A stretch of DNA of 49,914 nt from NCBI GenBank assembly GCA_021818955.1, contig JAKASR010000027.1:1-49914 (forward strand). The letters are read 5' to 3'. Below the pieces are notes generated by a model, which saw only the letters and a program-made list of their open reading frames with translations, was not told where the DNA came from and did no database searches. Position 1 is the stretch's first letter. Each line of letters starts with the position of its first letter. Made by a program: the position numbers and the translations under genes. Origin of the DNA: Acidobacteriota bacterium. Lineage in GTDB: Bacteria; Acidobacteriota; Terriglobia; Terriglobales; SCQP01. Positions 3,999-37,394 of the stretch are shown piece by piece.

Positions 3999-4101
3999 GC
4001 ATGGCTTCGCCAGCATTTCTCATGCAATTTCTTCGAAATTGAGCATGCTAAAGACTATTTCTTCGAAATTGAGCATGCTAAAGACTATTTCTTCGAAATT
4101 G
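3999..4101 (+). repeat. Dispersed repeat copy A: three tandem 30-bp hairpin units
   Basis: The module GCATGGCTTC (3999-4008) is followed by a 30-bp unit repeated about 2.4 times exactly (4031-4060, 4061-4090, 4091-4101), with an earlier start at 4024. Each unit contains the inverted repeat AATTTC-TTC-GAAATT and the palindrome AGCATGCT. The same unit recurs near 27.0, 29.4 and 37.3 kb. This copy lacks the hairpin head and the conserved tail found in the others. The rest of 3994-4259 holds only the ribosome binding site of the next gene. Confidence 0.85.
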
Positions 4102-4259
4102 CACAATGCTCGACGATCCACCTATATTTCCAGATACACCGCGATCGGCTCGCAGTATTGATTTTGACCATTCCCGCAGATCCGCGAGACAAGCGGGCGC
4201 CGGAGGAAGGATGAAAGGAGTCGGAAGCCAGGAGCTAAGTAAAGGAAGGTGGACGGCGG

Positions 4260-23651: not shown

Positions 23652-23691
23652 GGCCATGGCTCCATCGCCTCCGCCCGCATGGCGGCGCGAG

Positions 23692-23719
23692 GCGGCGCGG
23701 CCGCTTTTACTTTTAGGTC
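23692..23719 (+). repeat. Dispersed repeat copy E: head fragment acting as terminator
   Basis: The sequence GCGGC-GCG-GCCGC followed by TTTTACTTTTAGG matches the first 25-28 bp of the long repeat copies at 26.8, 29.2 and 37.2 kb. The hairpin plus TTTT lies about 45 nt after the dGTPase-like stop and looks like an intrinsic terminator. The rest of the repeat is missing here. A TATACT box (23723-23728) follows and may serve the next gene. Confidence 0.55.
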
Positions 23720-26810: not shown

Positions 26811-27060
26811 GCGGCTCGGCCGCTTTTACATTTAGGCGCTGACGCTTTCGCAAAGATCCGGCCGAAGCCGGACGCTTGGCGAATACGCATGGATGCCGGA
26901 AGTTTAATGTCGTTCAAAGGCGCGGGACCTAACAGGAACCCCGCGCGAACCCGGCCGGCGGGCATGGCTTGAGGCAATTTCTCCGAAATTGATAATGCTA
27001 GAGGCAATTTCTCCGAAATTGCCAATGACAAAAACTGCTGTCCGACGCGGCCGTTAACGC
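26811..27060 (+). repeat. Dispersed repeat copy B (full length)
   Basis: This 250-bp element is collinear with copy C. In order it has the hairpin GCGGC-TCG-GCCGC plus TTTTA; a GCGCTGACGCTTTCGCAA block; the hairpin TCCGGC-CGAA-GCCGGA; GGAACCCCGCGC; GGCATGGCTT; two tandem 30-bp units (26971-27000 and 27001-27030), each with AATTTC-TCC-GAAATT; and a tail from CTGTCCGAC to CCGTTAACGC. It fills the gap between the DinB-fold and DUF481 genes. A TACAAT at 27072-27077 follows it, 12 nt after the TTAACG of the tail. Confidence 0.88.
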
Positions 27061-27089
27061 TTCTGGAAAGCTACAATGCTGAAGAGCCT

Positions 27090-28172
27090 ATGAAGCGTCC
27101 GATGTCTGCCGTTTTCCGCCTGGCCGGCGTCATGTTGCTGCTCTGCGCCGCGCATGCCGCCGCCGATACTCTCACTTTCACCAATGGCGACCGCATCACC
27201 GGCACCCTGGTGCGCGCCGACGCATCCAATGTGTATTTCCAGAGCCCGATGTTCGGGCAAGCGGCCGTGCCCTGGAAGAATATCCAATCGCTGACAACGG
27301 AAAAACCTTATGTGCTGATTACCAGCCGTTATGGCGTGCATCATGGGCGTATCCTCCTGCGCCATCAGCAACTCATCATTTACCGCCAGGGTCATGCCAC
27401 CGCCATCCTGACGCCCAAGCAAACGGCGATGCTGGTCACTCCGGAAACCTACAGCCATGACATCACCGCCGCCTATCCGATCTGGAGCGGCTGGAAAGGC
27501 GCGCTCACCGCCGGAATCAGCCTGGTCAACGCCACCCAGTCGGTGCGCAGTTTTACCGGCAGCATCGCGATCAGCCGCCAGACGCCGCGCCTGGATTGGC
27601 TCCCGCCGCAATCCAAGACCAGTTTCGCGCTGCAAGGCAACTATGGCCGCATTGCTCAAACCGGGCATCCAACCGTTCTCACGGAAATTTTGAACAGTGC
27701 GCTCGAGCAGGATGAGTATCTCTCTACCCGGCTGTTTCTCTTCGCGAACGCGATAGGGGACCGCAATATCGCGCAAGGGTTGGGGCTGCAGCAAGCCTAC
27801 GGCGGCGGACTGGGCTGGAAAATCAAGCACACGCCGGCAACCGAGATTTCCGTCCGCGCCGATTTGCACTACACCCGCCAGCGCTTTTTAAACCAGGCCG
27901 GAAATCACTTTCTCGCTTCCAGCTACACCGAGAATTTCAGCCACCATTTCAACCAGGCGGTGATCTGGACCGAGTCGTTGAGCGTCACTCCCTCGTTGAC
28001 TCAAAGCCTGGCTTACCAAACCTCCGGTTCCACCGCGCTGGTGATTCCGCTGTATAAGGCGCTCAGCTTCAATACCAGCATCATCGACAGCTACATCAAC
28101 AACCCGCAGCCGGGATTTCTGAAAAATTCGCTGCAGTTTGTCAGCGGATTGCAATTCACGCTGCCCGGATAA
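27090..28172 (+). CDS. DUF481-family outer-membrane beta-barrel protein
   Basis: This 360-residue exported protein has a signal peptide (residues 1-25) followed by a small N-terminal domain with LTFTNGDRITGTLV and VPWKNIQSLTTEKP. From about residue 125 it has alternating amphipathic strands typical of DUF481 barrels, including GLGLQQAYGGGLGWKI and FNTSIIDSYINN and a C-terminal aromatic/hydrophobic strand. Function unknown; related proteins are salt-inducible outer-membrane proteins. Its promoter region contains repeat copy B. The stop is 5 nt from the end of the convergent nfo gene, so there is no space for a separate terminator. Confidence 0.8.
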   Translation: MKRPMSAVFRLAGVMLLLCAAHAAADTLTFTNGDRITGTLVRADASNVYFQSPMFGQAAVPWKNIQSLTTEKPYVLITSRYGVHHGRILLRHQQLIIYRQGHATAILTPKQTAMLVTPETYSHDITAAYPIWSGWKGALTAGISLVNATQSVRSFTGSIAISRQTPRLDWLPPQSKTSFALQGNYGRIAQTGHPTVLTEILNSALEQDEYLSTRLFLFANAIGDRNIAQGLGLQQAYGGGLGWKIKHTPATEISVRADLHYTRQRFLNQAGNHFLASSYTENFSHHFNQAVIWTESLSVTPSLTQSLAYQTSGSTALVIPLYKALSFNTSIIDSYINNPQPGFLKNSLQFVSGLQFTLPG

Positions 28173-28177
28173 CGGGT

Positions 28178-29161
28178 TTACGCGTCGCGAAGACGCAGCA
28201 AGGTTTGTAAGTTGCGCCGGTCGTCGCCGTCTTTTTCCAGGGGCGTTTCCAGGATAAAAGCGGCCTGCTTCCAGCGGGCATCGTGCAGCATGCGCCGAAA
28301 AAGGCCTGGGCCCAGATTGCCCGCCCCGATATGCTCATGCCGGTCGAGCCGCGAACCCAGGCGCGAGCGGGTATCGTTGGCGTGCCACACAAAGACGCGC
28401 TCGCGCCCAAGCTCGCGTTCGATATGCCGGCAGGTTTCCCGATAGCCGGCCTCGCTGACCAGATCGTAGCCGGCCACCCAGCAGTGGCAGGTATCGAGGC
28501 AAGCGCCGGCGGGCAAGCCGCGCAACAAATCGAGGATAGCGGCAAGCTCCCGGAAATCGCCGCCCAGGCGCCCGCCGCCGCCGGCGGTGTTTTCGATCAG
28601 CAAACGCAACCGGCCCCAGGCAAAGCCAGCGGCGGTTTCACGGATGGCCGCGGCCAGGCGAACGCGGGCGGCTTCACGGTCGCGGGGCGGCGCCCCCGGC
28701 CCGGTTTCGCCGCTTCCGGCAGAGGCGTCTTCCGCCCCCATGCTGCCGGGATGCAGAATGAGGAAATCCGCCTTGAGCGCCGCGGCGCGCTCTAATTCCC
28801 CCCGAAACGCCGCCTGCGAACGCTGCCGCAGGGATGCCTCCGCGCTGGCGAGGTTGACCAGGTAATTGACGTGGATGGCCAGGGGTTCGAGCCCGTATTG
28901 GCGCCGGCGCGCGGTCAACTCGGCGCAAGCGGCAGCGCTGGGCGTAATTGCGCGCCATTGCCGCGGGCTGGCGGAAAATATCTGCAGGCATTCACAGCCC
29001 AGCGCCCGCGCCCGATCCGCCGCGCGCTCCACGCCTCCGGCAATCGAGGTATGGATGCCGATGCGCGGACGGGGGCCGGCTGGACGCCCGCCCGCACCCG
29101 CTTTTGCCCGGCCGTTCGCCGGTTCCACCGGCGGCGCATGTTTACTTGTCGCTGCCCGCAT
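28178..29161 (-). CDS. nfo: Endonuclease IV (AP endonuclease family 2)
   Basis: This 327-residue DNA repair enzyme nicks 5' to abasic sites. The zinc ligand motifs are present: HVNYLVN, LILHPGS, LLIENTAG, CLDTCHCWVAGYD, WHANDT, DRHEHIGAGN and ILETP. About 35 extra residues, low-complexity and Pro/Ala-rich, precede the barrel. I chose the ATG at 29161 (minus) because GGGAG lies 6 nt upstream. The frame stays open back to 29518, but that extension is repeat copy C read in reverse. The enzyme starts divergently from the phosphofructokinase gene. Confidence 0.87.
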   Translation of the reverse strand: MRAATSKHAPPVEPANGRAKAGAGGRPAGPRPRIGIHTSIAGGVERAADRARALGCECLQIFSASPRQWRAITPSAAACAELTARRRQYGLEPLAIHVNYLVNLASAEASLRQRSQAAFRGELERAAALKADFLILHPGSMGAEDASAGSGETGPGAPPRDREAARVRLAAAIRETAAGFAWGRLRLLIENTAGGGGRLGGDFRELAAILDLLRGLPAGACLDTCHCWVAGYDLVSEAGYRETCRHIERELGRERVFVWHANDTRSRLGSRLDRHEHIGAGNLGPGLFRRMLHDARWKQAAFILETPLEKDGDDRRNLQTLLRLRDA

Positions 29162-29183
29162 TTTCGGCTCCCGCCTCGATGAA

Positions 29184-29430
29184 GCGGCTCGGCCGCTTTT
29201 ACTTTTCGGCGCTGACGCTTTCGCAAGGGTCCGGCCGAAACCGGACGCTTTGCAAATACTCACAGATGCCGATAGTTTATCTTCGTTCATAGGCGCGGAA
29301 CCTAACCGGAACCCCGCGCTTCGGCCTGCGAGCATGGCTTCAGGCAATTTCTCCGAAATTGAGCATGCTAAAGACAATTTCTTCGAAATTGCCAATGACA
29401 AAAACTTCTGTCCGACTCGGCCGTTAACGC
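29184..29430 (+). repeat. Dispersed repeat copy C (full length)
   Basis: This 247-bp element matches copy B along its whole length, with the same order of head hairpin GCGGC-TCG-GCCGC plus TTTTA, TCCGG...CCGGA hairpin, AGCATGGCTTC, two 30-bp units (from about 29341) and tail CTGTCCGAC...CCGTTAACGC. The two copies differ by many scattered substitutions, so they are not recent duplicates. It occupies most of the gap between the divergent nfo and pfp genes. Both strands are open in frame through it. Confidence 0.88.
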
Positions 29431-29452
29431 TTCCGGCGCAATCCGGTACAAT
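29424..29452 (+). promoter_or_regulatory. Promoter of the phosphofructokinase gene, -35 supplied by the repeat
   Basis: TTAACG (29424-29429), part of the conserved repeat tail, and TACAAT (29447-29452) are exactly 17 bp apart. Transcription would start near 29459, giving a 5' leader of about 65 nt before the ATG at 29525. Confidence 0.55.
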
Positions 29453-37238: not shown

Positions 37239-37359
37239 GCGGCTCGGCCGCTTTTACCTGTAGGCGCGGGCCCGATGAAGACCCCGGTTTGGCCTGGCCG
37301 GGCGCAATTCTCACGAAATTGACTATGACTTGAACCGCTGTCCGACCCGGCCGTTAACG
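37239..37359 (+). repeat. Dispersed repeat copy D (internally deleted)
   Basis: This 121-bp copy has the head hairpin GCGGC-TCG-GCCGC plus TTTTACCTGTAGGCGC, one divergent 30-bp-type unit (CAATTCTCACGAAATTG) and the conserved tail CTGTCCGAC...CCGTTAACG. About 130 bp of the middle found in copies B and C is missing. It lies between the pilB start and the TPR gene. The whole of 37056-37394 is otherwise gene-free. Confidence 0.8.
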
Positions 37360-37394
37360 TTTATTGCAGGCGGAAAGGAGCGTGATAATGGGAC

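Follow-up and report, generated by a model that had tools for sequence, protein, structure and literature searches.

Introduction

Five related stretches of DNA occur in a 49,914-nucleotide sequence from an Acidobacteriota bacterium (the window), and each of the five is on the plus strand, as is the next gene downstream of it, an arrangement that an earlier note had observed. Does this arrangement mean that the element is maintained by virtue of the genes it precedes, or does its orientation have another source? We addressed the question in the host assembly (G000; 3.80 Mb in 47 contigs, 96% complete) and in related genomes. For a census of the element, 1.62 Mb of G000 (43% of the genome) was read directly; gene borders in this part are approximate, as they come from a home-made hexamer model.

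Anatomy of the element

Copies B and C, previously described as a collinear composite with a fixed internal order, align over about 253 bp with 87% identity (E = 3e-74), and the description of copy D as internally deleted, copy A as units only and copy E as head only was borne out as well (Table 1). The next downstream plus-strand genes of copies A, E, B, C and D are GH67 (4260), DUF1844 (23749), DUF481 (27090), PFK (29453) and TPR (37395), respectively. An Rfam search of the window gave no match to the element; its sole match was a tRNA gene on the minus strand at 1514-1587.

Table 1. Copies of the element in the window and modules of copy B
Feature	Position	Strand	Description
Copy A	4009..4108 (about)	+	unit array alone: three 30-bp units, without head or tail
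Copy E	23691..23717	+	head alone
Copy B	26811..27062	+	complete element with two 30-bp units; then CTG and the conserved G at 27066
H1 left-end hairpin, copy B	26811..26823	+	GCGGC-TCG-GCCGC, then TTTTA; terminator-like head
H2 hairpin, copy B	26847..26884	+	outer stem TTCGCAA, inner stem TCCGG/CCGGA
Closing stem P1, 5' strand, copy B	26911..26916	+	CGTTCA in B; CGTTAA in most copies
P3 hairpin, copy B	26920..26946	+	GCGCGGG...CCCGCGC
Two 30-bp units, copy B	26973..27023	+	each centred on inverted repeat CAATTTC-loop-GAAATTG
Closing stem P1, 3' strand, copy B	27054..27059	+	TTAACG, within tail CTGTCCGAC..CGGCCGTTAACGCTT
Copy C	29184..29432	+	complete element with two 30-bp units; conserved G at 29436
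Copy D	37239..37362	+	head and tail kept, middle deleted; conserved G at 37366

Across the family, the layout is a head, middle hairpins, 0-5 units of 30 bp and a tail. Complete copies with both flanks have sharp ends, GCGGC-W-CGGCCGCTTTTA on the left and CGGCCGTTAACGCTT on the right, which places the exact end bases at GCGGC and CGCTT. The main length classes of complete copies are about 30 bp apart (189, 219-224, 248-252 and 278-279 bp), and the number of unit hairpins per complete copy is 0 (n = 53), 1 (34), 2 (23), 3 (9), 4 (6) or 5 (1). Tandemly repeated heads are also present (L028). When the two ends are read inward (GCGGCWCGG vs AAGCGTTAACG), no terminal inverted repeats are found.

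Copy number and distribution

Further copies elsewhere in the genome, which the earlier note had proposed to count, proved numerous. Over the whole of G000, a 29-nt head pattern with at most three mismatches matched 359 times (190 plus, 169 minus) and a 25-nt tail pattern 255 times (133 plus, 122 minus), while the reversed controls matched 0 times each. The directly read 1.62 Mb holds 216 elements, 214 of them intergenic and two within called genes; together they span 37,981 bp, or 2.3% of that sequence; set against its intergenic space, this length amounts to about 13%. The family is a high-copy one, with several hundred copies between the genes of G000. Repeats of other kinds occur in the same assembly, namely long (CARAGCG)n arrays of a 7-bp repeat on contig C12 at about 199-203 kb (L119/L120) and on C14 (L168, about 0.4 kb), those listed all being on the plus strand, and a large gene (C12 270910-276451) in which tandem repeats of about 276 bp lie at about 273.7-275.9 kb.

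The family is also present in G001, which belongs to the same genus, in G004 and weakly in G008, and a strongly diverged, separately amplified form occurs in G003 (76 exact heads, 169 loose candidates). An exact match to the 18-nt head occurs in 3 of the 399 genomes examined from the class, and each of the three belongs to the Acidobacteriota family of G000. Several further members of this family, among them G002, G005 and G006, gave no detectable element; by the head pattern, there are 359 matches in G000 vs 2 in its congener. When named genomes were scanned with 17-mers, most matches were chance tails and the element was present in L104 only, at the same score as G001:C39; neither viral contigs (searched with exact patterns) nor plasmid records contained a match. 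In these sequence searches, the element was thus found in one Acidobacteriota family only.

A conserved fold

Folded as DNA, the consensus of copies with 0 units forms H1 at the extreme left end, H2, and a right-end domain that is closed by P1 (CGTTAA/TTAACG) and contains P3 and P4/P5 (z = -3.7; opposite strand, z = -4.6). P5 applies to 0-unit copies, because in unit-bearing copies a unit partly replaces its 5' half. Covarying base pairs, which the earlier note had suggested looking for, were found in P1, P3 and P5. Among 26 sequences, with the G003 tail regapped by one base, P1 shows two-sided changes (T-A to C-G; A-T to C-G or G-C), P3 a compensatory change from C-G to T-A, and in P5 one pair occurs as G-C, C-G or A-T while a second changes from C-G to T-A. 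In the untouched alignment, 89.9% of cells are paired, as against 29-44% when partners are slid; the covariation score is 0.133 (slid partners, 0.016-0.066). Because the rows represent only four genomes in three genera, the count of cells exceeds that of independent changes. The compensatory base changes across three genera support the predicted single-strand fold as a conserved one.

Insertion sites

A G stands four bases past the right end (+4) in 138 of 149 copies (93%), accompanied by weaker flank preferences for A at -2, T at +1/+2 and G at +3. The same G is found at +4 in relatives with different right-end sequences, including 8 of 9 copies in G003. The cleanest empty site (C12:350364-350552 compared with G001 L217) shows, for this one site, zero bases gained or lost; since the empty site already holds the G, it is most simply regarded as a target base. 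Most of the 149 copies have no flanking duplication, and duplications of 7, 12 and 14 bp flank three of them, against 0.22 expected at a length of at least 7 bp. Direct repeats of 14 bp and 12 bp flank two element copies, at the L078 and L028 junctions, in contrast to nearly all other copies.

Orientation appears to follow replication rather than genes

The apparent bias towards sites upstream of co-directional genes did not extend beyond the window. In the 1.62 Mb, the classes of flanking genes in the frame of the element are balanced (++60, --58, +-47, -+40), and the element shares the orientation of its nearest gene in 76 of 154 cases. The gene-direction part of the earlier reading is not supported; an ordered, multi-module element in several hundred copies is, and the compensatory changes across genera show that its fold was maintained. 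If the element were kept upstream of genes for a cis-regulatory or terminator/attenuator function, the terminator-like head (hairpin and TTTT) and the five window copies would be accounted for, but this explanation is contradicted by the balanced gene context, and we regard it as the least probable of those considered, with a very slight chance of being right.

Orientation is, on the other hand, coherent over about 100 kb, with about 90% agreement among neighbours over tens of kilobases. Several contigs are one-sided (elements in the two orientations: C6 28/0, C45 0/25, C22 0/15, C43 19/1, C36 11/0), and pairs of elements 1-5 kb apart share an orientation in 57 of 63 cases, whereas their nearest genes do so in 34 of 63. 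Third-codon T/A skew differs between genes co-oriented with elements (0.089) and anti-oriented ones (0.275; P = 6e-39), and third-codon GC skew also separates the two groups (P = 2e-7); these P values overstate certainty because genes are treated as independent, but the per-contig counts stand without them. When direction is taken from T/A skew, 167 of 193 elements are oriented as predicted (124 of 134 at strong skew); the nearest gene matches the element in 84 of the same 193. At about 245 kb on C12, element orientation and skew switch together. G003, from a second genus, shows the same skew effect (0.132 vs 0.264, P = 1.8e-5).

Given this long-range coherence and its match to strand asymmetry, orientation appears to follow replication, not genes, and the five-for-five pattern in the window arises because copies share an orientation over large chromosome segments. 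The direction of replication is taken here from strand composition, without a located origin: the dnaA gene on C36 has no dnaN or gyrB among the neighbours examined, and a search for a dif-like site gave nothing convincing. As to the sense of the elements, third-codon GC skew points to the leading strand, T/A skew (on the assumption of T-rich leading strands in this genome) to the lagging strand, and the excess of G-to-A over C-to-T in element copies (35 vs 19 per thousand) likewise to the lagging strand. Polarity shows no clear difference between young and old or degenerate copies. Because full-length and fragmentary copies are both polar, the evidence favours a polarity set at insertion rather than by later selection.

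Search for the machinery

A profile search for the Y1 transposase (PF01797), in which controls worked, found none in G000, 96% complete as assembled. Across the family, the presence of Y1 does not match the distribution of the element, and the Y1 loci examined in relatives are without element ends. In the first 1.24 Mb, no autonomous copy with a transposase between its ends was found; head-to-tail spans considered as candidates were rejected, as the genes examined in them are of ordinary kinds, encoding YmdB-like, radical SAM and two-component proteins, a glycosyltransferase and peptidases. No repeated transposase-sized sequence was found in 1.62 Mb, though the assembly may collapse such repeats. 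The sole reverse transcriptase found in G000 is fused to Cas1 (RT-Cas1, 698 aa) and belongs to a type III CRISPR-Cas locus (L155:3520-12314, C28 at about 103.5-112.3 kb) that also carries Cas6, Cmr3, Cmr4 and Cas10c.

Explanations for the element

We put at about one half the probability that these are small, non-coding, non-autonomous mobile elements of a BOX-like kind, inserted at replication forks by an enzyme supplied in trans, most likely via folded single-stranded DNA. A recombinase, HUH-like or other, would act in trans and take the structured ends as its recognition substrate, with single-stranded DNA at the fork as the entry point; the number of units may change by slippage or recombination, as proposed for boxB, and the copies would be largely parasitic. 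More tentatively, the responsible enzyme might be an undescribed one that inserts folded single-stranded DNA at replication forks and needs little beyond a G four bases from the junction. That polarity is alike in young and degenerate copies is expected if it is set at insertion, while the three duplications of 7-14 bp are not predicted by a pure single-strand cut-and-paste model.

These duplications would be more at home in a MITE-type element, moved by a DDE transposase that acts on double strands and sets orientation by docking onto a part of the replication machinery such as the sliding clamp; a beta-clamp orientation bias of bacterial transposable elements figures in the title of a 2014 paper cited in PMC6006769 and PMC4549789. 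We consider this unlikely, as terminal inverted repeats and a repeated transposase-sized sequence (with the above proviso on collapse) were not found and the target duplications are neither regular nor of fixed length (3/149, lengths vary). Somewhat less likely is a polar signal of chromosome architecture (KOPS/AIMS-like), whose single orientation selection would preserve for the sake of replication, segregation or fork control: the agreement among neighbours and the same coupling in two genera fit it, but the uneven copy number (hundreds of heads in G000, two in the congener and none detected in several family members), the similar polarity of young and old copies, and a modular sequence of 190-250 bp rather than an octamer do not. 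Less probable again is retroelement-like spread, in which a structured RNA would undergo reverse transcription and insertion at forks. Compensatory changes in the fold, replication polarity and occasional flanking duplications of variable length are compatible with such a route; it is opposed by the CRISPR association of the sole reverse transcriptase found and by the lack of an Rfam match to the element in the window. Among mismatches, G-U shows no excess over A-C beyond the background spectrum when the unit-disrupted P5 helix is excluded, a result that does little to separate RNA from DNA.

Comparison with known systems

How REP, BOX and similar intergenic repeats spread is poorly understood. 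The present family combines exact ends and hundreds of copies with a fixed target base, a conserved fold and strong coupling to replication, which makes it a clean case for finding the machinery; its copies may also serve as replication-direction markers in unfinished genomes.

IS200/IS605 elements, like the present one, have structured ends, a short target requirement and no regular duplication. The element further resembles them in its replication-linked orientation, the direction being inferred from composition, and in insertion without duplication or loss (at one clean empty site and in most copies); transposition of IS608 and ISDra2, members of that group, is single-stranded and coupled to the replication fork (PMC6006769). 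It differs in that a single fixed G three bases away takes the place of an adjoining tetra- or pentanucleotide, and no Y1 HUH transposase was found in G000.

A resemblance to REP/RPE-type palindromic elements had been proposed. Like REP, BIME and REPIN sequences with their RAYT (TnpA-REP), the family comprises hundreds of intergenic, palindrome-bearing and probably non-autonomous copies. REPs, however, are 20-40 bp long, carry GTAG or CGTC tags and are often paired in opposite orientation (PMC3733652), whereas this element is 190-250 bp long, untagged and one-way, and no Y1 (RAYT) gene was detected; membership of REP/RPE is therefore not supported, and BOX offers the closest plan. KOPS/AIMS share the coupling of orientation to replication, but they are polar octamers (PMC5993296) and not an amplified modular element. 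Membership of REP, IS200/IS605 or MITE is thus not shown, because the defining features failed.

Pneumococcal BOX elements (boxA-boxB(n)-boxC) are composite, intergenic, rich in stem-loops and high in copy number, and have been proposed to be non-autonomous and parasitic in the part of PMC3049150 drawn on here. As in BOX of Streptococcus pneumoniae, fixed 5' and 3' modules enclose a variable number of tandem middle units. The likeness is one of plan only, given a different phylum, sequence and module sizes (30-bp units here), together with the G at +4 and an orientation that follows replication, the latter not being among the BOX properties in that same part of PMC3049150. On the best reading, this family behaves as a non-autonomous mobile element of the BOX type whose insertion is coupled to the fork.
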